Assembly (NCBI RefSeq): GCF_947623445.1
Contig: NC_135246.1
Location: 13,437,856-13,501,855 of the forward strand
Reading direction: 5' to 3'
DNA length: 64,000 nt
DNA from: Clavelina lepadiformis
Taxonomy: Eukaryota; Chordata; Ascidiacea; Aplousobranchia; Clavelinidae
The notes under the pieces were generated by a model that saw only the letters and a list, made by a program, of their open reading frames with translations, had not been told where the DNA came from and ran no database searches. Positions 4,295 to 59,000 of the stretch are shown here, one piece after another (positions within the stretch are counted from its first letter, which is position 1; each line of letters begins with the position of its first letter). The position numbers were made by a program, and so were the translations under genes.

Positions 4295-7200
4295 TTACAA
4301 CTTTACCTCTTGATTTATTTGGCATGCAATATCGCTTTCAATGATGTTGAGTCTGACGTCATAAAGTTGATCTAGGCCTATGTATGAATCAGAAACCAAC
4401 CAAAGCGTAAGGACAAGCCTGCAAAATAAAAAACAGTTCTTGCTGGAAACATAATCCCAGACGTTGTCATTATATCGAAACGTTTTTATACGCTAGCTAC
4501 TGCATATTGTATTCAACTGATGAAACATGAGGCTGAAAAATACAGCCAGTAATGTTGTTATAAGTATTAACACACCTTCCAACATTTTCTGGTGTGTAAA
4601 AAGCCAATGTTTCCGTAGAACGTTTCCGTAAAGTGCTTATTCTTTTCAGTGCAACCAATTCTCGTTTTTCACGATCTCCAAGAACTAGAAACCAACCTTC
4701 TAATTTTGGCTTCGGAAATCGTGGTGTAAAAGCGTTGTCGTTGGGCCGCTTAAAAACAATAAAGATTAATAACTATGTCGAAATCCAACAAACACTCAAC
4801 ACCGATATCTAATAATCTGCATGAACATTTGTAACTGCTTTCGTCCACCTTTTGGCTCAAGTTCATTCTCCGTAAATTGACAGTTAAAGAATATTCCTGA
4901 TCAGCGTGCACGTTCAACCAACTTTTTTCATCGCGCAACGAAACACCTGAATTTATGGGAAAAGTATGACACATGGTTCAAATTGTCAATTACATTTTAC
5001 TAAGAATAATTTCTACCCATTGCTTGTACCATGAAAAGCGAAATTTCAACCAACTAATGAACGGACTGAAATGATCTTACCAAAGCAAGAAGACACTTTC
5101 TTTTGTACTTCGCGTAGTGGATTATCAGCCCACCAACCTCGTATGCTAAGCGATACTTCAACTAGGGGAAGACTTGAAACGTGAGAGCAGATCTACAGAA
5201 ATGAAGACGTACTGTTTTTTTTTCTAACTTGGGTTTTCTTATTAATATTTGCGCTACATTAACCGAAACTTTTTTCTACAAATTATCGTTTGGAATGCAG
5301 TGATGATGGCGCTACTCTATAAAATTCACCTAAACTCACTTTATTTACATCAGATTCACTATACTCTTTTGATAAAACCCTACGGACAATATTCGGATTC
5401 TTGCTGTACAAATTCATCAGCTCTGGTAGGCATTCAACTGGCTGTCCCGAGTGCTTCATTTGTCTATAAATAACAAAAATAGCATAGTTAGTGCAAACAG
5501 GTAAACTATTTTGGGCATACTTACACCACAAAAGCCTAGGGTGAATGCACGAGAAAGACAGACAATGAAAATTGAGATAAAAGCATTGTAAAAATGTATG
5601 AATTTCAGCTTTGGAAGTTGTTGACTTCAAGAGTTTTCATTTGCAACTTACTTGAATACAAAGAGCTTATTGCGTTCGATGACAGGCAGAGTAAGTAAAG
5701 TGCTTTCGTGGAACCAGCTAGCTTGCGACACCATCTGGATAGCATGCATGCATCTCAATGATGTAACAATCCAACCTCGATCAGCACTCGCGTCAACAAA
5801 AGCCTTACATCATGGGCAAAAATTTATTATTCAACAAATAAAGCGCATAGTTAATATCATTTATTTTTAAATGCCGATTTCAAACATTTCTATTTTCAAT
5901 TAAATTAAGCTTACATCCTGCATAAACCAAAGTTGCTTTAAGTAAAAATAAGTAACGCAATAAAACCGACGTTTCACAATTTGTAATTGTCAAACCTGTA
6001 ATACACGTATGGCCTGATCGAGAACAGATTTCAAGTCAGTGACATAGTCTGTTGAAGGAAGTTGAATCCGACAGAAGTGGGCGTACAAGAGCAAGAGCGA
6101 CTTGGTGTGAGGGGAGTCGAAGGTGGTCGCATCAGCTTTCACCGGAAGGTCACGTGACAAGTCACTAAAGAGACGTTAGGGTTATTCATCAAACAACAAA
6201 CAAAATTAATAACAAATCATATTTTATTGTAGATGTAAGTCAAGCAGTTAGACTGCAGCTTAAACATGCATTGGGCGCGTCTATCCAAGAAAATCGTAGC
6301 TCGAATAACTTACTGTAAGTGGTGAAAAAAAACGGTCATCATTGTGGTCAAGTCACTCGACTCACCTGTTTACTGCATCTTCGTTGTGGCGGACTGGCAA
6401 CTCGTGATATTCCTGCGCGTTGGACAGAAGCAGGAGGATTTCCTCAACCGAGCATTCCGGCTTCATGTCTTCATGCAACATCCTGGAAGAAAATAGTTGA
6501 TAAAATCGCCGATGAAATGGAATTTCCCATTTAAGTAAAAAAATCCACTCTTACCTCAATGTTAAATGACTAAGATAGTAGAATGAGGCGATTCGACCAG
6601 CGTTGGTTGCTTCAAGATCATCACAGTCGTCCCACATCACACACCCGGATGCCCTCAAATCGTGGACAGATTTTTCGATTAATTTTGACAGATAGAAGTT
6701 TACAGAATTGTTTTCTTCAAAGAAAATTGTAAGTACGTCAATTGTAAGTACGTGAAATTAATACGTCAAATTAGAACACAGATGGGCTTCCTTTAAAATC
6801 ATTGACTGAATTTAACAAGTCAGAAACCTACCGACATCAACCAGCTCGTAGTAAGACGGGTTCATGAGCAATCTGCGAAAGAAGTAGGTCCAGGTGAGGT
6901 AGTCCATTGCTTCTTGCTTGTTGGCTATAGTGCCAGCCACGATCTCGGCATTTAAGTGATCTTGAAGCACCTGCAAATGTCGAAGTAGAAAACACTGGCT
7001 GCAATGGAACAAAAGGAACAATTTTTGGTCGCGGACAGATTTAACGTACCACGTACTTAGTCGGTACCCGAACAGATCTTATAACATTAGCTGCTTAAAT
7101 CTTGTCTTGTATTCTGCTCATAACGACGTGGTTACCTCAAGTAAACTGGACTCAACCGGGAAAGGTTCGTACAAGAATTTCTTATAGAAAGCTTTCTTTA

Positions 7201-10150
7201 CGTCATGAACAAGAATGACGGAGACAGCTTTGTCGTCAAACTGGGGTCGACCTGCTCGTCCCATCATCTGTAGAACGTCTGCAAATTTATAAGAGAATTT
7301 AATAGATTAAAGAATAGTTTCTTATCTTTATAATATAGTTGTTGTTTGTTCGTGCCGCTTAACCTTTTCAAGAAATTACGAAATGTCTGCCAGATAAAAA
7401 CTGTTCCGAAGCTCACGGAATGAAGCGATACATTCAGTAATCTACTCAGTAGATTCTAACGTACCAAATACGTCTATCACGAAACTAACTCAATTTTAAC
7501 AACTTACTGCGTAACTGTGGGATAAAAATGCCAATAATTCAAAATAGGTTCGATTACGAACCACAAACTTACCAGTAATAGGAAAGTCAACATAGCGGGA
7601 TTGCTTCCCGTCGAAGTACTCGGTGCCTTTGACAATCACAAGATGAGCCGGTAGGTTCACTCCCCAAGCAAGAGTGGAGGTTGCGATGAGGGTCTGAATC
7701 TTCTGTTCCGCAAACAAACGCTCCACTAAAGTCCTGTCTCGTTCCACCAGGCCAGCGTGATGCATTCCGATTCCAAACGCAAGGATAAGTTTTAAGTTGG
7801 GATCTTTCACGGTGTATGTCAGTTCCTCCATCTTAAAATGATAAGGGATTTAACACGACTGGAATTTCCGCTAAAGCAATTCCGATAAATTTTAGTTTAG
7901 TTTAATAAAATTTTAGTCATCACTAGATTTTCGACAAATGTCTTGATTTAATCGAAAGCTTAGTTGATCCGTGTAACTTTATCCTAACACTAACTTAAGG
8001 CGTGAGGCAAATACGTGCTAAGTTAAAGCCTGGGTAACACCTCGAATTCGTCCATATGCAGCCATTGCTTTGGGTCGTTTTCAGCTGCTAGATGAGCTAT
8101 AAGGTCAAGGGCAGTCAAGCGTGTCTGCCGTCGTGATGACACGAAAATGAGACTCGGTTTGGCCGGAGAATGTGTTCGAATCGCTATGAACAAAATGATT
8201 GGAGTAGCCTAACAACGGGATACACAAAAACTTGCAGAGCTAAGATGTTTAAGCAAAATTCTCGCCGAAATAAATATATAAAAATGTAGTAGGCCTAAAT
8301 ATGTCGTGCGTAATGCTCATCAACTCCTGTACCTTGGAAACATGGTTTGTTCATGGCGGCCATACGAGGGCAGTAGTGCTTTCCGGCAAAGCCATGTATG
8401 TGAACTTCCATGGGAACTGGCCGCACAGAAGGCCGAAAGTTAAACAAGCCCATCTAAAAACGAAAACACATAAAAGCAACTGAAACTCAAACAGACTTAC
8501 ATAAAAACTTATTATTGTACATAACCCCCACAATATTATGTAGCACGGTTAATGTTTTTAAGTCATCCTGTTAAAAAGGAATTTTAATTTTTCAAACACG
8601 TTTCACAAAAATAAGCATCACCAAAATTTCGGAAACTTTACTATAACAGTAGCCTACCTGCTTGATGCCAAGCCAGTCAGCCAGATCTCGAGCGTTTGCC
8701 AGGGCGGTAGAGAGTCCGACAATGCGAACAGTTTTCTCTGTCTGTGATGAAATGAAGTTGGTTCGTGAAACGATCACTTCTAACACTGGTCCTCTGTCCT
8801 GACCTATGAATAAACGTCGTCATACTGAGTAAACAATGATATGTAAAACAACAAAATGCTATCGAAGTTGTAGTTTACCAAGTGGTAGTCAAAAGACAAT
8901 TGTCCAATTGTTGACAACAGTCAAAAGACAAGTCATTAGGCCTATTAACGTTAATATTAAAATAAACATTTCACAATCTATATAAATGGCAACAAACGTC
9001 CAAAATTACCAAGTAGATGTATTTCATCAATGATGAGCAGCGCCACTTGTCGGACGTATCCCCTGGTGTGCCAGCTTCTCGACACACCATCCCATTTTTC
9101 CGGGGTGGTGATTATGACGTCAGCGCTAGCTACTGCCCTCATGTCAGGGGCGATGTCACCAGTTAATTCAACCAACCTAGAGACGATTGCACAAAACGGT
9201 ATGGTGACGACGACAGCAAACTAGAAAGACTTTGATAAAAACCTTAAAAAGACTTTCACAGTAAAAACAGTTTTAAATGCCGCTTCCAAATAAATTTCGT
9301 ATAAGCCGAAAAATACACAAAACCAACTTTAAGCCCAGTTTTGTGCCGAGTCTTTTCTTCCAGTCGTTCATTCTTTCACGAACCAGAGCCTTGAGAGGAG
9401 CCACATAAACCGCCTTGCAACCAGGTTGGGTGCGTAACATGCGGAAAACTGCAAGTTCGGCTGCTACAGTCTTACCAGAACCGGTCGGTGCACCTGGACG
9501 ATAAACAGCCACCGAACTAACTATCTACGGCTAGGCTATATTCTGGTTAGCATGAAATGAAAAAGTGTCCAACAACGCACCGACTAATGCGTTCGAGTCA
9601 TTGTGGTAAAGACAGTGAAATATCTGAGTCTGAATGGGATTGAAGTGGCTGAAGTTGTAAACTGATTGAAATCTTTCTTCCAACGCAGTTACAGGCAGAG
9701 GATCCAAATCCAACAATTCTACCAAACCGAGTTGGAATGATGAAAGACAAAATTAAAAGAAAACAAACGCTTCGAGAAGGCAACAGATACTTATAAAGCA
9801 CCTGTATGTGGAGGGTGGCGATCTGGTAGAATCAGATGTTGAAACGAGATCGGACAAACAGCGCTGGATCCAAACCAACGATCCGACTCCAGGTGGACCA
9901 TGTACTGACTGGGATGCGGTTCAACCAAAGGAATGGTGAACACTAAAGTTTGAGGTTCTTTGCGAACAACCTACATGGTTATAAAACGTTTACCGGTTTC
10001 CATTCGACAATAAACAGTTACCACTTTCCTTGTGTTTCAGTTCGACTTACGTGCTTTTTCGTAATTTGAACATATTCACTGTGGTACATGTGGTCTGTGT
10101 CAGGGTCTTCAACCCAAACCCAAAACGGTTCGCTTGTTGCTCCATGAACC
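4295..10150 (-). other. ASCC3: ASCC3 helicase cassette 2 and Sec63 domain 2 exons
   Basis: Linker exons lie at about 10150-10050 and 9970-9800. Cassette 2 exons, approximately: 9725-9590 ([15 protein letters not shown]), 9505-9330 (Walker A APTGSGKT near 9470-9492), 9180-9007 ([20 protein letters not shown]), 8803-8662, 8470-8338, 8185-8033 ([17 protein letters not shown]), 7834-7575 ([23 protein letters not shown]) and 7280-7135 ([12 protein letters not shown]). Sec63 domain 2 follows at 6970-6830, 6665-6555, 6483-6325, 6165-6000, 5800-5650, 5465-5330, 5162-5080, 4975-4770, 4735-4565 and 4420-4295, ending INQEVKL-stop. The last exons match the vertebrate C-terminal FN3-like part ([35 protein letters not shown]). 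Confidence 0.93.
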
Positions 10151-13100
10151 TATGAAAAATAATACGCGAAACTAAACTACAATCATCGCTTATAGTCAAA
10201 ACCTTCCCAATTAAAGCATGTTTACACGTGCAAGTTTTGCACGCAACTTTCAACATATAATGACTTATATCAGATCAGCGCAGAAATGCAAACATTCGCC
10301 TAAGCTTTCCACAGCTGAACTGCAAAGCCGGTTTTATGGTCACCTGCGTAACCTATGAGAGTTATCTTAACCAATCAGCTCACATGGTTGTTCCAACGAA
10401 ATTCTGGTGTTATGATCAGCTTAATGCGAAGGATGGTGCGCGTGATTGGTTGTATGGTCGTTTCCAAGGAAACGTGGGGCATTTCGCTGACGCATCGTGC
10501 AACTTTTTCCCCAATACTTGGATGTTTCAGCATGTGGCCTGAACAGTCAAATATATTATTAATTTTTTTTACAAGTCAACACAGTTACAAAAACGTAAAA
10601 CGCAGCCATGTGACGGTAAAGTACCAAAAGTAAGTATTTGGTACTAGTATTTGCAAAAGTACCTTTGATGCTAATAAATATGTCATGAGTTCTGTACAAC
10701 GTCGGTAGATACAACAAAATAACATACCAATTTCTTTGGGGGTAAGTTCCCTCAGTTGGTCTATCTTCAACTTTCGATCTTCGATTTTTCTCAAAATATC
10801 CTTGCCCAGTCTTGAGCCGAACTGACGCAGTGGGGTGTTGTGGGGCCACAATCGCCGATCGACGCTCTTGCACAGCTTGAGCATGCGGCTCGACACTCGA
10901 GTCATTCCTTTCTTGAGTACAATCTCAAACACACCGCGCACGATACGGGCGGCGTTCTGAGCAAGAACAACAATGAACGTCGGATTCGTCTCCTTCACTC
11001 AATACACTCTTGCGGTATTAAAGTAAAGTAAAGTAAAGTAAAGTGTGTTTTACAGAAATATGCAGTAGCACTAATGCTGATACACGAAGAGTGGAACAAA
11101 AGGCTGATGAATTAAAATACCATTCTCTAATAGTTTTACTGTACATTGGCTAAATTATGTTGACAACTGTAACAACTCAGTTAACTTAACAACGCTTAAG
11201 TCAAACTTGCAGGTCTATTTACGTCTATTTCGAAAAGTCACAGCAAACAATGCTATATATATATATAGTATATGTTATATACTATTACTAAGCAACTTTA
11301 CAAATAATCGCCACGAACAGGTTACCTGCGCTATGTACATGAGGTCAGAGGTCAGGGAGAAGCTACGAACTTCTCCGCATGAGATGTAAGTTTGAAGGAG
11401 AATGTTGGTTTTGCCTTCAGTTTCCTCGGGCCCGACTTTCATGGACATAAAACAACATTCGTCGATTAATTCGTCAAGCTCATTCATTTCATCGTCTCGA
11501 ACCTACAAATGATGCACTTCATTTTATGGTGGCGAACTCTAATGAAATTGTGTGGAACGCAAAAGCCAAAAGGGCAACGGAAAATAGCCTTGGCCTAGTC
11601 AAGTGTAAAGATAAAATTCCACTGCGCGAATTCAACCTTTATCTGTTCGAATTCATGAGACTTAGAGATCATCCCCACGATGGCCGTAATATCCATGTCA
11701 GATCGCAGCATCTCGTTAAAAGTTTCGATTGACAGATACTTGATGTAATAATGAGAGGCAGTTCGACCCATATCAGTTGGGCTGAAGTAACCTGGAATAA
11801 GGCAAACGACTCATCTGACAGTTTTTACTATATACAGGCGGAATATTAATGTAATGCATCATGATTATGCAATAACAATGTATTAAGAAATCGTTGACTT
11901 TGGGTATTTTTGCCTTAACGTAAGGGATAAACACGAAACCCTGCATTCCACAACACTATAGTCCATATTAGACTTATTGAATGCATATGCCAGGGGTCTC
12001 CAACCATTTTCTACCGCAAGCGGCAAAACCACGATGGTGATAGGCGGCGGGCCAGCACCTTTAAGGAAGAGACGGTAAATTCTGAATAAAACGTAATCAT
12101 GATTGATAGCGATAAAGACACACGTTCTAGCTTTCGCCAATAGGAAACGGGAAAACCCCGAAAAGGCAACGGAAATTTTCTATCAAGTCCGCTTCATATG
12201 CAGTGGAAGTGTTTTGGATCAAATGCTCTAGAGTCTAGAATCTAGACTCTAGATCAAGGTTGTCCAAACCTTTTTCACTGAGGGCCATGTGCTAAAACAT
12301 TAACCAGCGTTCGGGCCTCGTCATAATTAAGTAATAAGTTTGCGTTTTTGTCACTTATTCATGACAATAACTGGTTAACTACTACATATTAGTACAAATC
12401 CTTTCACCAGTATATCTACTAACAACTAATATTTGATTTAACGCCAACTTGTTTTCGGACTTGTCCTTCACTTTAAGTTTACCCCTGGCATATACTAAAC
12501 ATAAAAAATCGATTGGCGTGATAGGTTATTGACCTATTTTGAGGTAATTTACCGTTCATTCAAAACAAACCTGTCCTTTCGTCGAACCTAACCATATAAA
12601 CCTTGTCAAGTTTCCTACCAGCTGTGGTAATTAAATCTCGTTGCCATTTTTCCAACGTTGGATCGTTCTAAAAAGTTGAACAAATGGTAAGCACCTATTG
12701 AAGGTACCACACAAGCAAGATCAAAACGGCCCAGGAGCCTAACGCAACAGCGAGAAAGCGGTTTACGATTTGCAGCAATCTGAAGTTATTGATCTGAATT
12801 TTCGTCCATTTCCACTCTACTCTACCTCAATCATATCTGCTGATATTCCGTAGACAAGCGGATTTCTTCGCATGCGAGTATAAAGGTAGGAGTAGGAAAG
12901 CCATTTAACTCCATCTTCGACCGTGTTGACAGTCCCAAGGCAAATCTGAAAGCAATCGTTTGTACCTGTACCGGCAGCTTTCGGGCTTATACACAATATT
13001 CCATGGTAATAATAAAATCAACATTTCACGGCAACATACCTCTGCGTTTAGGTTGTCGACCAATGATTCTATGAACTGACTTTCGATTGGATTTTGCCTG

Positions 13101-16100
13101 GTAAGTAGAGCAAGATACTTGGAAAGTTTGTCGTAGGTTGTTATTATTGTGCCTTCACCTGTCTTGTCGAACTGAGGCCTGCCAGCTCTGCCAAAAATCT
13201 AGTCAAGAAAGGAGGGAAGTTTAACATTTAGAAACTTGTGAGTTTTAAGCTATGACAAGAACAAGTATAAATACGAAATTTACGATATTATTGAAAAACT
13301 GCGTCATGCATGGAATAACCGTCAGCACAACGCTGTTTGAAAAGTACTCCAGGCAATATTGACACATATCAACACTAACAAACTTAAGGATAATGAAAAT
13401 ATCATCCGACCTATTTTACCTGCATGACGTCCAAAATACCAAGGTCAACAAAGGAACCCATTTTAGCATTGTAGATCTGGGTGCCCCTAATCACAACGGC
13501 GTGGGCGGGAAGATTCACTCCCCAGGCAAGGGTAGCTGTGCAGCAGAGCACCCGAATAAGACCTTTGGAGAAGAGCCTTTCAACCAGGTTACGATCAGCG
13601 CGTAACATGCCCGCATGGTGAACCCCTAAGCCCCACTGAAAGAGGTCACGAAGCTCGCGGTTGCGGGATCTTTGCATCTGGGATTTAAACAGAGTGATTT
13701 AGAAAATCGAAAGGAATTATCACAGTTATGAGGATTTGCAATTGTGCGGAACATTTTGAAATAATTTTGTAAAACGGTGATTAGATTAGAAACATCCTAT
13801 TCTTTATTTTTATTTAATTCTACAGTTTTTTAATACCTGCTTGTCCGCAAGAGAATATCCTTCCATCTTCTGACAACTGAAGTAACTCGTTTCGTTATTT
13901 GTCCTCGCCATTTCCAACAACGCGTTTGCCGTCTTTATAGTGGCCTTGCGCGCATGAACAAAAACCAATACCTGAGGATGGATCACGTTCACTTTAGGTT
14001 TACGTCTGCACGGGCATTCTTCAGCCAAGTAGTTGGGTTTGAGAGCTGGATAGTTATTACACAACTAAGCATCGTTTACCTGATAATCCTTAACCAAGTT
14101 TTTCATGACCGTTTCGTAGCATGACTCGTCCATATCAAGGTTTTGCTGCATCACGCTCCTACTCTTAACGCCGATGAAGTTCTGTTGGAGAGGAACCGGA
14201 CGAAAACGACCGTCAAAAAAGAACAGTCCGATGTGTCTGAATAATATAAGAAATAAATTACGAAATTCAAATACAAACAGTCCGGTGGTGTTTTCGTATT
14301 TCCAAATATAATTTACAATTGACAGATATCTTATACCCAAGAATGAGTTTTCCTGTACAAGTTAAACTTACGGGTTAACACGAAGAAACCTGGCCACGTC
14401 TGTATAATTGGGCAGAGTTGCGGACAAACCAACAATTCGTATCATTGTTTGTTGTGTTTCAACCTGAAACAGCACGAGCATCAGTAAGAAAATTCTTACT
14501 GACCGTCGAACAAAAACAGCCAAAAAAGCATTGGTACAAAACCTGTCTTAAAGTTCTTGCAACCAAGGTCTCCAGCACCGGTCCTCTTTCATCGTGCAGC
14601 AAGTGAACCTCGTCAATGATAAGTAGGCGTACCATGCGTGCAAGGGCCACATCTCCGGTAGATTTTCTAGTCACAACATCCCACTTTTCTGGGGTTGTTA
14701 TCAACATCTGAAATAGACGGTTATATGTTATAAATTCTTTGTGTGTTCCTATGAATGTTTGTGGGAAAAAAAATGATTTTAGCGTTATTATCGTTAAATT
14801 TGAATGTATATAACAAGCTTAAAACAGTCTAAAATTGACTGGATACTGGGAATGACCGGGTACCTGAGTTTCTGCAATTTCCTTTTTAGTCAGCTGCATG
14901 TCACCAGTGAGCTCTCGGACAGCGACACCAAGCGGAGCCAGGCGTTTACCGAAATTCTCGGTCATTTCGGCAGCCAGTGCTTTCATTGGAGCAACATATA
15001 CAACCTAAACAGAAAATACCAAGTAAATAATACATACGATCAAACTCCACATTGAGCGATGCAGTTCCCAGGAAGGTAATCACTCCCAAGCAAAGTCAGT
15101 CTTTAAACCACGAAGCCACATACCTTGAACTTATCTCTTTGAATTACTCCAGACACCACATTTTGCATAATTTCACGGACAACTGTCAACATGGCGACGT
15201 TGGTTTTACCAGCACCGGTGGGAGCACAGATTAAAAGGTTTTCGTTGGTCTTGTATGCTGTGTCGAAGACTCGGGATTGTATGGTGTTTAGTTGCTTGAC
15301 ACCAGTGAACGCCATTTGAGCAATCTCAATATCAAAAACAAAAGAAGTTTAAACTTAATTGCATTGCAACGGATGCGAGCTTGTATTTCAGAACAATGTA
15401 TACTACCTCGTCTAAGTGACTTATTGAAACCAAAGACCAGGGTTGACCAGGGAAGCCACCTGTGGCTGGTATACGAATTTCCTCAAATCTTTTTGATGAT
15501 TCTACTTCAAAACCTTCAGGTAAGGCCATCTAAGTAAAACAGGAACCAGCTCAAGTATCAAAAGAATTCATGTAATTTATGAGTTGAAACTTCAAGCGAA
15601 CATTGTACACAAACAGATAGCATTCTTAAGGAACTACACACCCGAACTCCACCAACAAACGCTGCAGATTGATGAGCAGCAACTTTTGAGTCGTAAACAT
15701 TTGGGTAAACCTCGACTGCGCCTCCTTTAGTTTTATGAGAAAATAGTGGGGCGGTTGAGGCCAATGACAAGGCCTTATTCCTATAAAAACAATTTTACAA
15801 TCAATCAATGATTATACACTTTATGATCATTACAACCCTATACAGAGCTGTATGCATTGATAAAAATAGACAGGATGCAAACCTCTGTTGGCGCAAGTTA
15901 TTTGAGTCAAAATCATCAGTATTTTCATGATGCTTGTTGAAAACCTTCTGTGCCTTTCTCTCCTCTTTGCGGATAAGTTTTGCAATCTGCTTTTCAGCAT
16001 CAGTCTTCCGAGTGCAATATTAGAAGAGCGAAGTAAAATCGCAAAGAGCCCAGTTTGCATAGAAAGTAAACAAATCAAATTTGTCTCGGTCTTACCTGTA

Positions 16101-18163
16101 CAACAACTTGACTACCATACTTGGGAATGGATTCTCTGGTTGAAGGCAAAGCTGAAATACAGACAGGTATAAATGAATGCATACAATGCATAAAAAATGG
16201 CTTTTTGTTCTGTTTAAAGTCATAGTTGCAAGATGCACCAACATTTGCTATTTCCATGCTGAGAACTACTCTTCAAAAGGTTGTCATCTTGCACAATAGC
16301 TTCTCTTCTTCGCAGAATCTCAGCAATGAAATCAAGGTGGTCAAAGCCCAGCAGTTCACAGAACTTGCACAATATAAACCAGTACTAAATGCTCGTAATG
16401 CTTGTGGTGTTCATAATAATGCTTTACTTCAATCATATGTCAATGGCAACATATATTACATAATACCTCATTCTGCAAATGGTCATTTGTTTGGTTCGAC
16501 TTGAGTAGTGCCAATGCTGGGTCAACTAACTGTCCAGACTTGAAATTCCTAAATATATCATAAGGATAATTAATGATATATTATTTTCACAATATTGCTT
16601 AAAATATTATTTGTTTGCGTTCATTCAGTAATCCGAGTCTGAAAAGGCAGTAGGACAAGGATAACCTTACCCACTGCTCCATTAAATCAGAAAACATTCC
16701 TAAGTTTCCTACTAGTATTGAAAGTAAAAAAAATAGACATTTACACACTCAAAATTTACATTTGCATCTGTCTTTTTAGCCATGGCATTCCGGACCCCTG
16801 GGTGTGAGTGTTTGCTGATTTATCTGCTATTGATTTTTCCCGAAGCCTAGTTTGATCATAATGGATTTGTCGGAAAGCATCAACAAAGTCATTTCTAGTA
16901 GTTATATCATCCTCATCAGATCCAAACACAAAATCAGATCTCACAAAAGCAGGCAGTTTTGATGAAAACTACAATAAACAATAAACACTTTGAATAATAT
17001 GTTAAACAATATTCCTGTTTATTGTACTTGTAAACAATTACCAATTTTAAATAAATCTACATGTAACAGCTTCTTTAGAGTTTATTCTTATGTTTAAAAA
17101 ATATTTTTACAATTAAAAAAATAGTATTTATTGCTTTTAAAGACATTACAAGGCAAAAGGTTATAAGCATTTTACAACCTTAATTTTGTGACCAAAAGGT
17201 TTTCTATTTCTTTGACTTTCCACCAGATATTTTATCTCATCAATCGCTTTGCTCCCTGCTGTTGATGCAAGCTTCATCACAACCTGATGAACCGTTTTTA
17301 AGCTGGTAAAATCCACTTTCCCAACCTTTGTTCTAACAGGATTATAAGTCAAAATTACAATATCATCTCCTAAACACTTAAAAGTAATTTGTCTATATCA
17401 ACTGCTCACTCCAGATGGATGAAAATATATACAGAATAAAGCCAAGAAAACACTCAACTGTAAATCTATTACTCAGACCTTAATTCCTCCACATTCTTTG
17501 AAGAAATGGATTCAACTTCGTACAGATAAAGAAAAAAAATGGTGGCGGCACTTTGTTTTACTTCTGCACTTTCATCATCACCAACTATATTGAAAATTTT
17601 ATTTTGATAACTATTTTCTGAATCAAGTGCAATGGTTGCGACAATTTTTTTTTCTCTTGGAAGAACATTCATTCAAAATATCACTCACCAATATTACCAC
17701 TTTCTTGTAAAAGGTCCCTTAACATGGATTTTACCAACTGATGTGCCTTCCGTTCCTTACATCCTTTTCTAACCAACACTTGGAATTCTTGCCATGTTAG
17801 TTCACAGTCAGAGAAAGATGGCTGTTTAATAGAAATAACATCAACTGGTTTTGAGATTACATAAAAATAATTTTAAACACGGCCATCAACAGAAACGTGA
17901 AGAGCAGACTTTTAAAAGTTTAAGCAGGAAAACTTTGCCTAGATACATACTAGTTTAATGCAAAGCTACATGTGCAAATCAGTTACAGTATAAATATGCA
18001 AAATAAACGAGAAAAGAATTACATCATAGCACAATTACATTACACATTAACAAGTGAAGACCTTTTTCTCATGCAATGAATATTGCTGTGAAATTCCTCC
18101 AAATTCCCTGATAGCTGTAGTTAAGTGAGGTGTCTCCAATATATTGAGCTGTGATTTCATCAT
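4295..18163 (-). CDS. ASCC3: Activating signal cointegrator 1 complex subunit 3 (Ski2-like double-cassette helicase)
   Basis: ASCC3 is the 3'-5' helicase subunit of the ASC-1 complex. It unwinds alkylated DNA for ALKBH3 and dissociates collided ribosomes in ribosome quality control. About 35 minus-strand exons collinear with vertebrate ASCC3 can be read from a Met at 18163 (or 18160) to a TAA at 4295-4297. In order they encode the N-terminal region, helicase cassette 1, Sec63 domain 1, helicase cassette 2 and Sec63 domain 2. Cassette 1 has [15 protein letters not shown] and GRAGR motifs; cassette 2 has [15 protein letters not shown] and GRAGR. Both cassettes look intact. The closest alternative, the spliceosomal helicase BRR2, is excluded by ASCC3-type stretches such as [18 protein letters not shown] and [18 protein letters not shown]. 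Exon edges are approximate, and the first exons are the least certain. Introns carry transposon copies. Confidence 0.95.
11020..11044. repeat. (AAAGT)n microsatellite
   Basis: Five tandem AAAGT units in an ASCC3 intron. Confidence 0.85.
11991..12487. mobile_element. hAT-type non-autonomous element in an ASCC3 intron
   Basis: Starts CAGGGGTCTCCAACC and ends ACCCCTG. It is flanked by GCATATGC (11983-11990) and GCATATAC (12488-12495), an 8-bp duplication with one mismatch, as expected for hAT insertion. Around 12254 there is an internal hAT-like end (AAGGTTGTCCAAACC), so a second insertion or internal rearrangement is likely. No transposase frame is present. Confidence 0.7.
15405..18163 (-). 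other. ASCC3: ASCC3 N-terminal region exons
   Basis: The first exon (about 18163-18055) starts with Met-Met and contains [12 protein letters not shown], which resembles the PRLTGALRSFSN start of vertebrate ASCC3. Further coding blocks lie at about 17821-17690, 17665-17480 and 17350-17170. Next is an acidic block around 16945-16780. A block at about 16160-16085 carries [11 protein letters not shown] highly charged block at 16010-15906 ([12 protein letters not shown]) is followed by 15780-15650 ([17 protein letters not shown]) and 15535-15405 ([19 protein letters not shown]). These last four match the linker before cassette 1 in vertebrates. The short spacing between the second and third blocks (about 40 nt) would be a very small intron, so one boundary there may be wrong. 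Confidence 0.75.
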
Positions 18164-23400: not shown

Positions 23401-24128
23401 CTTACGTAAAAAAGAAAGACGCAAAACGTTTGCATTTTTTTCGCCTATGTGTCACTTGTGGCTTTGTTTCAATCTTGTCCACCTCTAACTGATTTCTTTT
23501 GTGATGCGCAGAGCAAATAATAGCTTACAATACGATCCTTTGTATTGTATTTTGTTTGGTTCGGACCATTGTTGGCTTAATCTACACCTTTTTAATGAAA
23601 CCCGATTCTCTGTAGTTTTTATTGATAGGCAACCTGTACGCCCTAGCAACGGTATCGACAACGCATCCCACGTATCTATGGCTACCACACTTAAAATGTT
23701 TTGGAAGTAGATATGAACTGTTAGTTTTCACCTGACCACGAAAGAAGAAGCAGCGTTCAATTTTGCTGACCGCTTTTTATTGCGGAGGATTATTAAGTTC
23801 TTACAAAATCATATTTGACAGACAGAAATAAGGTTAACTAGGGATATAATAGATTTTATAACAGATAAAATAAGGCTAACTTTACTCTGTAATTTGCTAA
23901 GGGAAGCCTTGCTATACCTAGGCCTATACGTTTAAAAACATACAACAATGCGCAGGTTGCAAGCATATTCAATTCAGCTTTGACATAGGATAAAGTTTCA
24001 AGGCTCCCGTAAAACTGAAATAGTAGATTAGAGAAATAATTTTGTTATATAGGAGACACACATAATATTGTTTAATTACAGGTGTTTTAACTGCATAAAA
24101 GAACATTCAATTCAATTAATCAATAAAA
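20417..24128. other. Intergenic, no gene seen
   Basis: AT-rich sequence between the hAT cluster and the first PLAC8 gene. It contains four tandem TTTGAC-like units near 21480-21500, and two copies of TACTGGTGGAGCC about 105 bp apart (near 22177 and 22282). Short open frames on both strands around 23190-23710 lack splice context and are probably chance. Confidence 0.5.
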
Positions 24129-24567
24129 ATGGCAACTTTCAACCAAGGACTTTGCGGTTGCTTTGACAACAGTTCCCTCTGCATCCTTACCTTCTGCGCT
24201 TTCCCATTTGTTGTTGGAAAGAATGCCGAGTCCGTCAAGGAGAATCCAGTATTGTGGGCCATCGGATACCAAATGGCTCCATGTATTGTTGGTGGCTACC
24301 TCAGAAGTTTAGTTAGAAAACAGAGCGTAAGTTTTCTTTTTTTACAATATATGCTTATAATATCTGATATCCTATTATATACTATACTGATATTAAAAAT
24401 TGTGGTTCATTTTCTTACAGGGTATCGACGGTAGTTTTGGTAACGACTGCTGCATGCATTGCCTATTCCCGTGCTGTGCAGTTACACAAGAAGCCGCCCA
24501 GACAAAAGCTTGTCATTATCTTTTCCCAGCTGAAGGCCAAGTTGTTGAACGAACCCCAGCGGCATAA
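24129..24567 (+). CDS. PLAC8-domain protein A (cornifelin/PLAC8-like)
   Basis: Two exons, 24129-24326 (66 codons, donor GTAAGT) and 24421-24567 (48 codons plus stop), joined in phase 0, give 114 residues. The protein is the Cys-rich PLAC8 type: LCGCFDN near the start, a hydrophobic Cys-containing stretch (ILTFCAFPFVVG), NAESV, and after the splice GIDGSFGNDCC then CLFPCCAVTQEA, matching the family's DC-x-x-x-C-P/F-C-C-x-x-x-Q signature. Family members associate with membranes, and roles vary among animals, fungi and plants, so no specific function is assigned. A TTACAG acceptor about 45 nt upstream of the Met suggests a 5'UTR splice. It converges with the paralogue at 25497-27166. Confidence 0.85.
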
Positions 24568-38700: not shown

Positions 38701-38706
38701 TTTATT
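38701..38706 (-). terminator. Polyadenylation signal of the micropeptide gene
   Basis: AATAAA on the minus strand, about 46 nt past the stop codon of the sarcolipin-like gene, in an A/T-rich stretch with overlapping copies. Confidence 0.6.
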
Positions 38707-38751
38707 TTATTATTTATACATTTACAGGCCATAGCATTTTGGTCTCTGTAG

Positions 38752-38853
38752 TTACTCCATCATATTCACCGCGATGTAAAGAAGAATGAGCAGACACAGG
38801 ATAATAGCAAAATTTAAGCAGACATCTCTGATCCGGAAGTTCTGCACCTCCAT
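38752..38853 (-). CDS. Sarcolipin/phospholamban-like SERCA-regulating micropeptide (33 residues)
   Basis: A 34-codon frame starts at an optimal Kozak site (GCCATGG) and encodes a polar head of about 11 residues, then one transmembrane helix (about residues 12-29), and ends NMME. It aligns without gaps to sarcolipin. Arg9-Asp10 matches Arg-Glu, LNF (13-15) matches the invariant LNF/INF that packs against SERCA, and Tyr26 sits where sarcolipin has Trp. About 9 of 24 positions are identical and most others are conservative. Sarcolipin and phospholamban bind the groove of the SR/ER Ca-ATPase and lower its calcium affinity. The cytosolic regulatory domain of phospholamban is absent, so it is sarcolipin-sized. 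A good acceptor (CTCCTTTAG before 38882) indicates an intron in the 5'UTR with the whole coding region in one exon, as in vertebrate PLN and SLN. Orthology to PLN rather than SLN cannot be settled from sequence alone, but the flanking genes favour PLN. Confidence 0.72.
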   Translation of the reverse strand: MEVQNFRIRDVCLNFAIILCLLILLYIAVNMME

Positions 38854-39229
38854 GGCGAAATCCGATAGGTTTTGTGTTAACACTAAAGGAGGAGCGGGCA
38901 ATTCGCGAGTATGTAAAGAAAATTTTCTGAAAAGTAGATTATCGTCAAATATAATCACAAAATATATGCAGTGATATTATAATAAGCAGAAGAATATTAT
39001 TCCATGTGATACGTAGCAAGCGTTTTTGAACTAGGGCAACTTATTCAACTTTGCCTATGCAATATGTAAGCTATACTCATAGCTACAATTTTATGCGATA
39101 CATTCTGCTTAGGACATACTCATGGAAATTGTGATTGTTTGCAGTCACGAAATCACTGTTAGAAATTGGGTACTAAACATTTATCCTATTTTTGAGGTGT
39201 AGGTCTATAGATAAACAAAAATTCTTTGA

Positions 39230-39275: not shown

Positions 39276-41429
39276 ATTTTCAATGCCAGCGCTTATCTAC
39301 ATTTTTCTGCAAGATATGGATAAGGATTGACAATGACAAGAGCCCATAGATCTAGAAAATAAAATACAAACCAAAGATCGTAGCAAAGTAATAATCCTAC
39401 AAACATTGCTCTTTTTAGCATCTATGTCCTTTCGCAAAAAAGCTTTAGATTACCAATTTAGCTTAGTAACAACTCAGTTTAACGCATTTTTATTTTTCGC
39501 ATTAACTGAAAACCTTTAGTTTACTACAAAACGTTTTGCAGCAAGTTTTCATATTTTATACGAAGTAACCATTTCACCGTATGTAGGTCACGAAGCCTGT
39601 TGTTAAAGATAAGCGGTTAGGTTGAGAGAATGGGAATGCAAAAGTTGATTTTAGCTATTTAAGGTTTTATTGGAGTTTTCCATTCACACGATTTTATCCG
39701 GTGAAATAGTGGCAGCCTATTTTATATGCATAAGTTACCATTCATGGTAACTGCAAGCTCTGCGATAAGGTAGGCTAAACAACAAAATGTTTGCAGATTT
39801 TTTGAAACATCTACCACAATTATTAATTCGTCTATAACTTTTCATAATATCGAGAAATCTTCTGGCTTACTTTTGCTAATCAGAACTTTTTTTAATTCTC
39901 CAACAGCACACAGGCTTTTTCTTTAAGTTTTCCGCAAGCAACTAAGGAAGGCACCTCCTGCACATAATAAACCCAAATCACTGCGCAAAGCAATTGTGTC
40001 CTTCTATTTATGGTTGCTGGCAGATTGACTGTTATCTGTTTCACAACAACACTTTTTGCTTCGTTGCTTGCAACAACGCATGTCTTCCATCACGTGGTAA
40101 AATTTTCAGACGTAAAGAAGTCTTCCAATGCAAAAGCGGATAAGACAATCAAAAGTGTGCTCAAGTGAAGTTATGACTGCCGAGGTGACATCAGCAGAAG
40201 TTAGATGTAACATTTCTGCTTGTTTCCTATTCAATTACCATCAGAACACATGAACTGCAATGCAAGACGCAAATGTATACTGGTTTGCTTTAAACATTTG
40301 ACAGTTTAGCAAGTACGAATCACAACAAATTGCGTGACGGTACTTCCGCAAGGATTATTACAGACCGACGTCATTTTACGCCCTAACTATTTAGCTAAAC
40401 GGCTCGCAATGCACCACTAAAGTTTCATGATCGTAACGAGGTGTTGGTATTTACTGACGCTACCACTGTGACCCTCGTCAAAGATTGCAGTACTTGATGT
40501 TCGTCTAATCAAATTCTTTGATATCATATGTATTACATATCACTATATGCAACGCACAAAAAGCTTCATCTTTTATGTCATAATTTTGTTCGATTTGTGG
40601 TTAACAAAATTACTCCACATACAATCTGCGAAAACATCTTAAAATAAACGCCTTTCCAGTGAAATTGTTTTTGAATATGAAAGAAAGCAAGCGGATACTG
40701 ATTTTATACCTACAATATTTACAGTAACTAATTAGAAAAAACGTTTCACCTTGAATTTCACCAACTTTTGAATTCGACTGCACCCAACAACCAAACAGGT
40801 AGTGTTGCTGATATATAATACAGCCTATTAAAGACATGAATACAAGCTAAAATAGACATAGTTTAGTCATTACCACATCAATGTCGTAAATGTCACAAAT
40901 ACCATACATACAGCGTGAATTAAAATAAATTCCACAAAAGAGCTAAAGCTATTGAATGGAAAAATAACAGGCGACAAAAGCTATACAAGAAAGCACAGGT
41001 CTGCATGTCACTATAGATAAATATAATTAATCATATGCACTCACAAAAATATTCTCAAAACACAGTATGTCTCTATAGAGGGAAAAAAAGACTGATGAAA
41101 TCACGAAGAACACAAAGTCATTTTAATATGTGCCCTGTTTTTTATTTTTCACTGTTTTATTTGTCTTCCAGTCTCTGTAACGAGCTCTACATCTTTGGCA
41201 AAGTTTTATATGTAGCATTATTTGATTTATTATAACATTATTATATAAGCAGTAAAGGGAAGCCTTTTGCTGAAAGAAAAACCTCAGCATTAAAAATATT
41301 AAACGAATAAAACAAGATTGTAAAATCATAGGCTAAATGTATCCCACATATCAATACACCAAAAGAAATCTGTGAAATACACATTTGTGCCATTTGGAGC
41401 ATCTTGTGGTACTCTTTATTTAGCAACCA
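39276..41429. other. Intergenic, probable promoter side of the micropeptide gene
   Basis: No coding frame supported. Any first non-coding exon and promoter of the sarcolipin-like gene should lie in this region, since the gene points away from it. AATAAA signals for AMD1 lie just before 41430 on the minus strand (41415-41420). Confidence 0.4.
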
Positions 41430-44400
41430 TCAAACTTTCTTCGCAAAGTTAGTGTAGAAAAGGGAGTAGTGAAGCAACTGCGCAACTTGGCTGTCCAACC
41501 TTGCAAAGCCATCTAAGCATGGCCCTTTCAACAGCCACTCACTGGTATCAACCGGTGCAGTCTGGTTAAGCCATGAAAAAAGGTTGTCAAATATTTGCAA
41601 TTGTTAAGCAAAGTATGTTAGTGGGACAAGCGCAGAGAACTCACTTTACTTGCAAAGAGTGTCATCGTGAACTTTCCAGGTTTGAAAACATCCAGCACTT
41701 TGTGGATCAGTGATGAATAATCTTTGGTGAGCAAGTTTGTTTCAAAACTAACATAGGAAAAATCTTTTTCAGGTGTGATGTGAATTGTCCAGTACTCCCC
41801 CTATGAAAAGAATTAATACTCTTCAAACAAGTCTAATTGATGTGCGTTGAACAAATACAAACAGCATAGTAACACATTTTTTCCGATAGGCATGATTAGT
41901 GATGCATATTCTACAATGCTGAATTCTTAGAAATCAAATTTCAAAATACTCAAATCCAATTTTTGTATATTTTCTTAACCCCAGCAACCAGTCGTCTTTC
42001 ATCATTAAATGTTTTCATTAGCACATGCTGCATGTAATCGATTCTTATTACAAATCACAAAACCCAGCTTTGCATGTGTTAGTTATCATAAATTAAACTG
42101 CATCACGTTAACTAGACAACTGTTATCATTCTTGAAGATTCAATATCTTGGTAAATGTGATTTGAAATTTATATCAGGAATAAAGTGTTGTAGAATAATT
42201 AAATATTCAGGATGGTAAGTGTACACCTCTAAGCATAAGTGCCTAGTAAAATCACACCTTTGGAAGTAAGCCATTAAGAGAATAACCACATGGATCAAAG
42301 AGACACACGCTCAGTTCTGATTTAGGGATCAGATCTGCAATGCCGCTTTCCTGAAATTGTCATGTCACAAAATAAATAAAGATTAGTCTTACTTACACTT
42401 CTGAAAACTGCTGATAATTCAAACTGATATCATTTTAATAACCACTTAAAACCTTTGTAACAACATCCTGGTTTTTCTTTTTTCCCTCAGCATCCCAGAG
42501 AGTAAATTGTGACATAACATCCTGGTCTAAGTCTGTCATCAAAATTTCAAGTGTCTGATCTGGTTCGACGACTGCAGGAAGTGACATATTACCTGCATGA
42601 TTTAGTGTGTATAAAAACCAGCAATCGCCATTCATTCTTCCAAGGCAGTATGATGCACTAGCTAAAAACATACAAAAAGAAAAAAACATTATTTTGCTAT
42701 TATTGGTATATAACGTGTTTAATGCCATTACTGCTTTTAAATCAAACAGTTTAAGATCTTTTTATCAAAAAGAATCAACAAGAAAAATGCATGTTAAATG
42801 AATGCTTTTTCATGTTTGAATGCACGAAAAATGTTGCTACAATGTGTCCATTTTTTATCCAGTCAGAATTTAATGGTTATTTATTGCCAATTTTATCAAC
42901 TTTTTGTAACTAAAAGTTTGGGAAAACTTAAAATAATATTATCAGTTCCTTCAATTTCATGTACACGTATAAGAAATTTACATATGCCCAAGCTTATTTT
43001 AGAAAATTACCTGATAACATTTGGTCAAGATAAACTATTTCATCCTGAAAGGTTTTATGGGGGTGTGGCTGTTGATTAGGCTTCATGAAATTCTTCCTTG
43101 AATAGAAGCAATCCTGAAATTTAAAAAAAGTTTCATTCACATGCATTTAACTTATACATACCACAAAAACACACTTCTGGAAGTAATATATAGAGCATGT
43201 TTCATCGGCAATGATTATTGAAAACTGTTTTAAAATACTTTTCTTAGAAGTTGATCTATTTAATCTTATAATTTTCAAGGTGCAGGGCAGCAAATTTACA
43301 ATTGGAATTAAGTTAAAACAATCATCTTTGACATGAGATAAGTCAAGATAAGTGGGCTTATGAAAAATAATAAATGTTTACAGCAACAACATCCAATCCA
43401 CAATGCTTCTTCATAAGGTCAAGTATGTAAGGGAGTGCTTGCAGACACAATGTTGTTCCACATGTTTTCAGAATAATTCGTCTTTTCGAGACAAAGAGAC
43501 TTGACTCACTACAATCAAATAATAAAGATTTAACCTCCAATTGCGCTTTGCTACTATATATTCACACCTGGAATTCAATAGCTGGTTCACTATTAGAAAA
43601 ATCGTTAAAAACACTGATTGAATACCATACCTTAAAAGGTATGCAACCTGCGCACCACTTTCAACCACATTCAATATTTTGCAGTGTACATGATCCAGGA
43701 TACTTTCCCACTGTTCCCTACAATCAATAACAAAGTTATCTCATTTGTAAAGGTTACATGAAAATTTCAACTGATACAGTTAATATGTTACACATAAGCT
43801 AGCCCATCCCGCGGTTCTCAAACGTTTTTCTTTCTCGGTAACCTATGAAAACTTGCGGCGTCGTAATCAATCCAAAACCAGCAGGTATTTCAAAGGGCTG
43901 AGCAGTTGTATTGAATCATGTTCAAAGCGCATGAGAACAATTAATTGAGTTTATTCTTCTAATTCTACCGAGACAAAATAAGGTTCAGTCTTTCTTATGA
44001 AATTAGCATAGCTACATATGGTCAATACGATCTGCATTTGTTTATTAAGTAACAGAAGTAACGTGCATTTTCTTAAAAACTTTGATTCGTGCAAGGTGAG
44101 GTGCATATTTGAGAAAAAATTCACCTTGTAACCAATGAATTAGATTTACATCCTTATAAACGCAAGTATAAGAAAAACTAAATACAACGATTTTCGTTCA
44201 AATTTGCCCCCAGCAAAATCAAACCTTTAAGAACCACTGGCCTATACAATTGAAAGTGCACTGTAAAAAGGGGAAAATGCACATAAAGTTATGCCAAGCA
44301 GATAAATGTAATTCGAAACCTTGAAGCCATTCGAGCATCTCCCTCTCCGCTAGAACTTTCAGATTTGGCAAACCAAATCTCAAGCAATTTTTCCACCCCT

Positions 44401-44441
44401 TCGAAGAAGTGTGCCTCACCATTGACCACAATGTCGCCCAT
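41430..44441 (-). CDS. AMD1: S-adenosylmethionine decarboxylase proenzyme
   Basis: The enzyme decarboxylates S-adenosylmethionine to supply the aminopropyl group for spermidine and spermine. Eight exons are phase-consistent: 44441-44320, 43717-43631, 43508-43382, 43113-43011, 42661-42453, 42350-42258, 41800-41645 and 41561-41430. They give 342 residues, against 334 in human. The start [15 protein letters not shown] carries the catalytic glutamates (Glu14 and Glu17). [12 protein letters not shown] contains the self-cleavage site Glu71-Ser72, where Ser72 becomes the pyruvoyl cofactor. KTCGTT supplies the active-site Cys, and [32 protein letters not shown] and [20 protein letters not shown] follow the family closely. 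All expected catalytic elements are present, so it should be active. The first intron has a weak donor (GTTTCG) and houses a hAT-type element. Regulation is discussed under the upstream ORF at 44501-44521. Confidence 0.95.
43809..44239. mobile_element. hAT-type element in AMD1 intron 1
   Basis: The left end GCGGTTCTCAAACG pairs with the right end TTTAAGAACCACTGG, the usual hAT/Charlie-type terminus. Flanks GCCCATCC and GCCTATAC share six of eight bases, suggesting an aged target duplication, though the exact left end is uncertain by one or two bases. Confidence 0.55.
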
Positions 44442-56005: not shown

Positions 56006-59000
56006 ATGGTTAACTTAAATCTGTATGCGGTCTGCTGGTTCTTACTCTCTATCGTAGAGGTTGTATTTTGTCAAGAAATCTTGGGTTGTGGAGGCTTTGT
56101 TAAGTCTGATGTGTCAATTGACTTCACTCAAATTGAGGTAAGTTTTTTCCTAGGTGCTAATTAAAGCTGTGCTGGTCGTTGCAGATAAAGGCAACTAAAA
56201 AGCACATTTGCTTAGGTAAAGTGTTTAGTTATCTTTCAATTCATGTTATACTTGTGGCTTTTGTGATGTGAAGTTTACATGCATTTGTGCCATTTTTACA
56301 AGCATTTCATTAAAGACTTCAAAGTATTGTGTTGGTCACCACTCATCATTGAACAAAATACTTAGCATTTAGATACCTACTGCCACATTTTTAGCCAATT
56401 AGCTTATTTAGTGGAAGTCGATTAAGGTATAGATAATTAGATATTCTTACATTCTGTGATGAACCAGTGAGTAGATGAAGTTTTCTTAAACGAAAACTAC
56501 TAATGTGACACAATTTTTGCTGACTAACTGAAACGTTATGCTTTTTGAATTGAATAGCGATTTTGCATGAACATATTTTTGCAAAATTTTGTGTTTATGT
56601 ACACTACCTTATCCAATTGTCTCCTCGTATGTCGTTTCGTTATGTTAGCTTTAAATATTTTAGCAAACAATAAAAGTCAGCAGCTTTTTATAAACAAATA
56701 CAAGTATATATAAATACAGTTACGTCAGTTTTCAGTCATTACGTCCATCTTCTTTTTTGTTTCAAAAATTTAGATACAACTTTTCACTTATGAAGGAATG
56801 TTGAAGTATCAGACTGAGTGTGCTCCTAACAATGGATACTTTATGGTTCCTTTTGTAGAGAAGGTCTGTGAAGCTAACAGTTTTTGTTGATATATATATA
56901 TATATATATAATTATCAAATATAAGGCACTACTGGTAAATGTAGAACTTTATAGTCTGCCTATGTTTCATTAACCCATTTGGGTTAACTTCATCATGGCA
57001 ATGGGAATAAAATTTCAATTTGGCGAAAATATATAGAATAATTGTCCAGATGAAGTTAACTCGAATGGGTTAATGAAACATAGGCCGACTATAAAGTTCT
57101 GTATTCAACTGTAGTGCCTTATAATTGATGACTATTATGCCTGGTGGCAACCGTGGTATATGTAGATATATAATGTTTGCAAATGTTATTTCACACTAAA
57201 GTAATGAAAAGTAAACCTATGGGTCATGTAGTTTTAAACTTCTATGAGTAACTGTATGGTTGGTTTATTTTTGGCATAATTGCTATTTTTTGATTTAAAA
57301 TGATTAAGAAATTGGATATGCTTTATGGTATTTGTCTTTATATTGCTTTTCAATTTAGGGAAACTTTATTTTGAAAATTGATCCTCCAAAAGGTTGGCTG
57401 TTTGGTAAGCAATTACTATTTACACTGATTCAGGAATATTGTTCAATTAATGAGAAAAAGTTTTGACGACTTTCACGTCTTTTAAATTATTGCATGCCTT
57501 GACGGAAATTGTATAGTATCATTCAATTGCTATAAGAATTTGCAAAATGACAGCATTTTTTGTGATTTTAATCATATATACACAGGAACAGTATGATTGT
57601 TTTATGTACTGTATTATTGGCAAATGCAGTGGCTATAGGTAAAAGCAAAATTGTTGTTTTAGAACCGATGTCAGTTGACCTTAGTGTAGATGGTGTTAAT
57701 GATGACTGCACCAAAGGCAAGGACATCAATTTTGTTTTTAAAGGGTTTGCTGTATCTGGGCAGGTAATCTTTTGGCATTTTTTAGAAAATAATATCGTGT
57801 TTTAAGTGAAATGTTGCACTAACTAGTGTAGTGAAATTTACTATGATTTAAATTGTTGTTTTACATTATGGAAGATATAAAATTTGCATCCTGTTTAGAA
57901 TTGCTGTTTAAAATGTTTCATATTTGTAGGTATCCAGTATTGGAACTGGTAATTCAGGGCCAGAAGGTGTAATTGTTAAGCTAAAAGCATCAGACTCAAA
58001 CAAAGTAATAGATTCAACAGAAACAATCATCAGTGGAACATTTCACTTTGATGGTGTTCCACCTGGTCAATATGTCATCACTGCATCACATGAAACATTC
58101 TTGTTTAGCAAGGTTTGTACCAATGTACCATGCTTATTTGTTAACATGACAGTAACTTTTAACAAAAAATGTGTAACTATGAGCTTGGTTTTGTTGGTAG
58201 TTGGCGATGCAAAACTTTTATAATTTGTTCGTACACTGCAGCATGAATCGCTACTCGTAACATCATGCAACTCCAGCAGTTCCCATCTTTGTTACCTCTG
58301 CTTGCTTTATTAATATTAACTCCAAATCACACTGAAACTACTTTTATGCTAGAAGAATCTTTTGAGAGTGTAGTTATTTCAATTGTAAATTGTAGCATTA
58401 AATATAATATAAATTATACAAACACAAATATAGAGGTTAGGTCTGTGCAGTCAATGTTGGAGTTGGTGAAATTGTCCTGACTCCTACTTCAATTGATTAT
58501 ATTAACATCTCAGGGAAACAAAACAATATCTTGGTGTCAGTGAAGGTTTTTGCAGCCCCCCCCCCCCCTGTAGCCCTGATACATAATTTTAATCGACAGT
58601 TAACTTACAGTAGAACTAAAACCAAAATTCACCTAATTAGCCATCTATCCCTTGGTGCCTACCTAGCTAGCATAGCGAATTTTACAATGATTTAAATAGT
58701 TGTTTAACATTCTGAACTAATAAGGATATAGAAGTTGCATATATTCTTTGACATTGTTCACAATCCTTATTCCTCACTAATGTAACACAACCTGCTTGTG
58801 CATCACAATGTAGGTATGTCATCATATGGATCCATTATTTTGTGATTTTATGCTGCTTTTATCAGTTTTACTTAGTGGAAGCTCCTATATAAAGGACAAA
58901 TCTTTGGCAAAGGCAAAGCAATCAAAGATATTGAATTCCTTCAAGATTGCATTCTGAACTCCACATTATTGTGCACCAATCCAAATTGTGTCTCCTGCTT

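Follow-up and report, generated by a model that had tools for sequence, protein, structure and literature searches.

Does an ascidian tunicate possess a relative of sarcolipin (SLN) and phospholamban (PLN), the small membrane peptides that inhibit the calcium pump SERCA in vertebrates? The question is raised by a 33-codon open reading frame (ORF) from the chordate Clavelina lepadiformis, which lies in a stretch of 64,000 nucleotides on chromosome 7 (C7:13437856-13501855); this whole stretch is the window analyzed here. We propose, with a probability of about 0.77, that the ORF represents a single-copy ascidian co-orthologue of PLN and SLN, predicted to act as a SERCA-inhibitory micropeptide. 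That it is a real gene is very probable in its own right. From the sequence, we infer its transcription, muscle expression, binding to SERCA, inhibition of the pump and orthology. The ORF and the signals around it are as follows:

38752..38853, minus strand: ORF of 33 codons plus stop, MEVQNFRIRDVCLNFAIILCLLILLYIAVNMME, with the ATG at 38853 and the TAA ending at 38752
38850..38856, minus strand: start context GCCATGG, which is shared by 2 of the 360 ATG ORFs of 25-60 aa in the window
38854..38882, minus strand: 5'UTR piece of 29 nt from the putative acceptor to the ATG, whose codon choice is not coding-like
38883..38894, minus strand: acceptor-like pyrimidine tract and AG, CTCCTCCTTTAG, recognized by consensus only, with a putative exon start at 38882
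38701..38711, minus strand: two overlapping AATAAA, 41 and 46 nt after the stop and followed by a T-rich stretch, recognized by consensus

Much of what the initial annotation had described at this locus is borne out by these features: an ORF of 33 residues running from ATG to stop; a favorable start context; an acceptor-like site just upstream, ending 29 nt before the ATG; and a polyadenylation signal 46 nt downstream, to which the second AATAAA at 41 nt can be added. Its further claim, that these signals support a real transcript, is based on consensus signals, namely the acceptor and the AATAAA. As to how common they are, the acceptor-like site has 11 pyrimidines in 12 positions, and at least 10 in 12 are seen in 40 of the 1702 YAG sites on the same strand of the window; an AATAAA within 60 nt downstream is found for 26 of the 360 ATG ORFs of 25-60 aa. 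The encoded peptide, with borders drawn by eye, consists of a polar head (residues 1-12), the L13-N14-F15 motif, a hydrophobic helix extending to about residue 29 and a tail reading NMME. Serine and threonine are absent from the head, MEVQNFRIRDVC, and likewise from the peptide as a whole. The product is short, with one C-terminal helix (judged by eye) encoded in a single coding exon (with borders set by consensus), as in the PLN/SLN group.

The coding capacity of the frame was assessed with a within-amino-acid codon score, trained on 2,304 codons from exons of SERCA and related P-type ATPases, SLC35F, ASF1, ASCC3 and NOMO. By this synonymous score the ORF ranks 8th among the 360 ATG ORFs of 25-60 aa in the window; four of the seven that outrank it are on the ASCC3 strand inside the ASCC3 gene, and two of those four belong to the training data. 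Third-position GC likewise puts it among the best 8 of 360, while a codon score in which amino-acid content also counts places it only 14th. Upon the addition of AMD1 to the training set (2,502 codons), the ORF scores +3.1 over its 33 codons as against -2.0 for the nine codons that precede it. Hence, coding appears to begin at the ATG at 38853. The frame itself is open as far as 38976, with no in-frame ATG upstream.

What, then, does the peptide resemble? A search against the 24,736 models of Pfam at E up to 10 returned two matches, Sarcolipin (16.3 bits, E 0.0083) and Phospholamban (12.4 bits, E 0.11), which lie below the respective cut-offs of 26.4 and 25; at the same E limit there was no match to the Sarcolamban model PF21898. 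Human SLN itself scores 16.2 bits on the PLN model and human PLN 14.3 bits on the SLN model, both below cut-off. These weak cross-scores imply that the Pfam cut-offs separate the two sister families from each other and do not bound the PLN/SLN group, and that the micropeptide is about as distant from SLN as PLN is. A phmmer search of the PDB, again at E up to 10, recovered two sequences, both sarcolipin (best E 0.0071). The gapless alignment to sarcolipin noted in the initial annotation is upheld, with the LNF motif and the Arg-acidic pair kept: against rabbit sarcolipin, 23 residues align without a gap, among them the Arg-acidic pair and C-L-N-F, and a count made by eye finds 9 of the 23 identical.

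We further constructed a custom profile from three SLN sequences and the C-terminal part of one PLN, on which the micropeptide scores 16.7 bits. None of the other 359 ATG ORFs of 25-60 aa in the window reaches this score; nor do any of 20,000 full shuffles of the peptide, and it is attained by 6 of 20,000 shuffles made within the head and the helix. In a plain ungapped comparison with human SLN, none of 3000 shuffles reached the observed score; the corresponding counts were 71 with human PLN, 65 with SclA and 168 with SclB. On the genomic scale, six-frame searches turned up other stretches of up to 17.3 bits with the SLN model and 18.5 bits with the PLN model, and the micropeptide locus is absent from the matches listed in these searches. 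Moreover, about 0.4 chance ORFs with such an SLN score are expected genome-wide, a figure obtained by multiplying ~1.2 million ORFs, extrapolated from the 360 ATG ORFs of 25-60 aa per 64 kb, by the Pfam p of 3.4e-7 (E 0.0083 / 24,736). Given these chance stretches at 17-18 bits and this expectation, similarity alone proves nothing at the level of the genome.

The comparison with the known SERCA peptides can be made residue by residue. With vertebrate SLN (31 aa) the micropeptide shares its length, the short head, the gapless run of the Arg-acidic pair followed by C-L-N-F, the Asn at the place of SLN Asn11, the single helix and linkage to SLC35F; it differs in having the NMME tail in place of the luminal RSYQY tail, and in falling under the Pfam cut-off. 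With vertebrate PLN (52 aa) it shares the equivalents of Asn34-Phe35 and Val49 as well as linkage to an SLC35F gene (SLC35F1 in the case of PLN), whereas it has neither the cytoplasmic phospho-domain with its RRAST site nor any Ser/Thr, is again under the Pfam cut-off, and carries Cys in place of Ile40, which we take to be a zipper residue of PLN. The arthropod sarcolambans (SclA and SclB) are alike in size and topology, but differ to the extent that PF21898 does not match and that shuffles reach the SclA and SclB scores with the frequencies given above. As one defining feature of SLN and one of PLN are each lacking, we file the micropeptide with the PLN/SLN group and not with SLN or PLN proper.

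The presumed partner of such a peptide is encoded on C6 by two SERCA genes in tandem, at C6:7459000-7468500 and C6:7472000-7481500, the starts of which are ~13 kb apart; Clavelina thereby combines two copies of the calcium pump with one candidate inhibitory peptide. In what we take to be the standard SERCA numbering, both copies keep the groove residues T317, C318, L321, K328, G801, L802, T805 and F809. The differences are a Ser for G808 in both copies, and a Leu for F92 in the single copy for which an alignment of the M2 exon was obtained. Conservation of the groove is expected of SERCA generally and is not diagnostic. On the side of the peptide, a hand alignment equates Asn14 with PLN Asn34 and SLN Asn11, such that the micropeptide covers PLN 21-52 and ends one residue beyond the end of PLN. 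The Asn-then-Phe pair at the start of the helix, which is essential in the PLN/SLN group (PLN Asn34-Phe35, SLN Asn11-Phe12), is present as N14-F15, and Val29 corresponds to PLN Val49 and SLN Val26. Passages in PMC8396278 state that PLN Asn34 and SLN Asn11 contact Thr805 of SERCA M6, that replacement of Asn34 by alanine abolishes inhibition, and that SLN inhibition depends on the luminal RSYQY tail.

Briefly, we advance the following plausible mechanism. The product would be a tail-anchored membrane peptide of 33 residues. It would occupy the groove that M2, M6 and M9 form in SERCA, where Asn14 would face Gly801/Thr805 of M6, and it would lower the apparent calcium affinity of the pump. The inhibition might be relieved by calcium, by a change in the level of the peptide or by proteolysis. 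With no Ser or Thr available, switching by PKA or CaMKII would not take place on the peptide itself. Judged from its sequence, a constitutive, calcium-relieved brake on SERCA would be the simplest reading.

The genomic surroundings supply a further line of evidence. The genes recognized in the window are:

41430..44441, minus strand: AMD1 (S-adenosylmethionine decarboxylase) gene, with its stop at ~41430, 2.6 kb upstream of the micropeptide ORF
4500..18000 (outer limits approximate, by eye), minus strand: ASCC3-type helicase gene, with ASCC3 as its best PDB match
24120-24431, plus strand: PLAC8-family exon, a Pfam match below its cut-off
57500-64000, plus strand: exons of a NOMO gene, with a Pfam match at 62538-62870 and earlier exons from ~57.5 kb recognized by eye

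The gene at 42.4 kb had been considered to be a p24/TMED gene; this was wrong, and it is AMD1. As AMD1 ends 2.6 kb upstream, the micropeptide is not one of its exons. The helicase is assigned to ASCC3 on the strength of a PDB E of 7.7e-60, against 7.1e-41 for human Brr2. AMD1 and ASCC3 thus flank the micropeptide on opposite sides and on the same strand. Both presumably map to human 6q, as does PLN, a link that we drew after the fact; we found no published confirmation of AMD1 and ASCC3 at 6q21 in the open-access literature.

In contrast, SLC35F was chosen as a linkage test before the search. A single SLC35F gene was found genome-wide, with five exon matches at C7:13060571-13062596, on the same chromosome as the ORF and 414 kb from it; the SLC35F linkage of the PLN/SLN group is hence seen here as linkage, not adjacency. 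Its assignment to the F1/F2 type was judged by resemblance to human SLC35F1, and its exons found no match in the PDB. The chance of one gene falling within 414 kb is ~0.4% (about once in 250), or ~1.6% when corrected for four linkage tests. The other three tests were negative, making one positive in four: ASF1 is on C5, the ELMO-domain genes are on C1 and C2, and OSTM1 is on C1 with a weak second match on C2, the human map places of ASF1A and OSTM1 being those that we presume. For the human genes, PMC7612636 names PLN, CEP85L and SLC35F1 together at one locus, and PMC3170628 lists SLN beside SLC35F2.

We also asked if the genome holds a second copy or a better candidate. The assembly searched comprises 209.06 Mb in 95 contigs; for kaClaLepa1.1 as published, PMC10884593 gives 210.1 Mb in 102 scaffolds. 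When this 209-Mb assembly was searched with the peptide, no convincing second copy emerged; a match on C6 (E 0.11) reads MIQHSVEPQNYRIKDECSNHKVISVILIHLYLSKCI..., without a hydrophobic helix, and was taken as chance. The SLN model matched 8 places (8 given as loci), the PLN model 23 (10 as loci) and the sarcolamban model four (three as loci), the micropeptide locus not being among the last four. Reading these by eye, we found the combination of an in-frame ATG, an early stop and a whole helix in none of the 16 SLN/PLN loci read, and in none of 19 once the three sarcolamban loci are included; of 21 loci, L033 and L034 are outside this count. Four loci (L021, L030, L031 and L046) have an upstream ATG without, as judged by eye, the full combination; among them L046, a sarcolamban match, runs 68 aa from its ATG and is hydrophobic but longer. 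In L025, L026 and L028 there is a stop inside the match, where reading ended. L027 (C7:16602413-16602529, plus strand; 17.5 bits) has an open frame, NLPTNFCLFLVCLLMLVLID, with a PLN-like helix and no preceding ATG, and is either chance or an exon of another gene. As a separate observation, L031 and L034 share a 70-aa frame with RKKLFFNLSPILLCL, and many further PLN-model places fall on the same model positions with equal frame length, a pattern suggestive of a dispersed repeat with a weak score on the phospholamban model. At L033, a minus-strand match, the frame on the opposite strand resembles a retroelement.

With this evidence in hand, the alternatives can be weighed. One is that the ORF is a real gene for a small membrane protein unrelated to PLN and SLN, in which the LNF motif and the likeness of the helix arose by convergence within a 33-residue hydrophobic peptide. 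Short hydrophobic sequences indeed match by chance, as the 17-18 bits attained elsewhere in the genome attest, and both the unattained Pfam cut-offs and the three negative linkage tests fit this account. Yet we consider it unlikely: at E up to 10 Pfam matches the peptide to SLN and PLN and to no other family, the custom-profile score is rarely reached by the composition-preserving shuffles (6/20,000), the SLC35F linkage is improbable by chance even after correction, and none of the 16 SLN/PLN loci read (for PLN, 10 of the 23 matches being given as loci) combines an ATG, an early stop and a whole helix. It is more improbable still that the ORF is a chance, untranslated frame. The ~0.4 ORFs of this SLN score expected in the genome would by themselves allow for it, but the start context, codon choice, acceptor, AATAAA and SLC35F linkage are each uncommon and independent of the match and, if they are also independent of one another, would jointly cut that expectation by orders of magnitude.

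A comparably slim prospect is that the frame forms only the C-terminal end of a longer protein whose earlier part is spliced on from upstream. The frame is open across the acceptor, and between AMD1 and the micropeptide there is a mini-ORF at 40527 on the minus strand, containing LIRRTSST, that could furnish an exon at ~40455-40527 (minus strand), MISKNLIRRTSSTAIFDEGHSGSV, and thereby add a PLN-like basic phospho-motif; the phase of its candidate donor, worked out by hand, fits the acceptor. Against this, the candidate exon has a codon score of -0.45 over 24 codons, to be set beside the negative score of the nine codons before the ATG and the positive score of the ORF; the upstream-extended peptide drops to 15.3 bits on the Sarcolipin and 8.9 bits on the Phospholamban model; the donor is weak by eye; and the motif Ser lies 37 residues from the Asn, as compared with 18 in PLN. 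Further, the exon was found by searching for such motifs, and ~0.16 of its kind are expected by chance in the stretch; the mini-ORF at 40455-40527 is probably just such a chance occurrence. A sarcolipin/phospholamban-like gene, as the initial annotation had it, accordingly remains the best reading, in light of the Pfam matches, the codon choice, the SLC35F linkage, the failure to find a second copy and the two SERCA genes that keep most of the groove residues.

If the ORF is indeed such a gene, its position in the history of the family becomes pertinent. Passages in PMC9338278 and PMC4807881 describe a family common to flies and vertebrates, so that its span across arthropods and vertebrates is already known; in the open-access literature on tunicates, ascidians and Ciona we found no description of a tunicate PLN or SLN. 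We lean, at little better than even odds, towards a scenario in which the tunicate has kept the pre-duplication form of PLN and SLN. Under this scenario, a single short gene with one linked SLC35F gene would have given rise, through genome duplication, to the SLC35F1-PLN and SLC35F2-SLN pairs, following which PLN would have gained its phospho-switch and SLN its luminal tail. With tunicates as the vertebrates' sister group, an ascidian relative that is single-copy and linked to SLC35F would supply a root for the PLN/SLN pair and would place the origin of both the phospho-switch and the luminal tail within the vertebrates. It would also offer a simple system, in the ascidian heart and the larval tail muscle, for the study of an unphosphorylatable SERCA brake. 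If true, the adrenergic control of cardiac relaxation via phospholamban would be a vertebrate invention built upon a constitutive brake.
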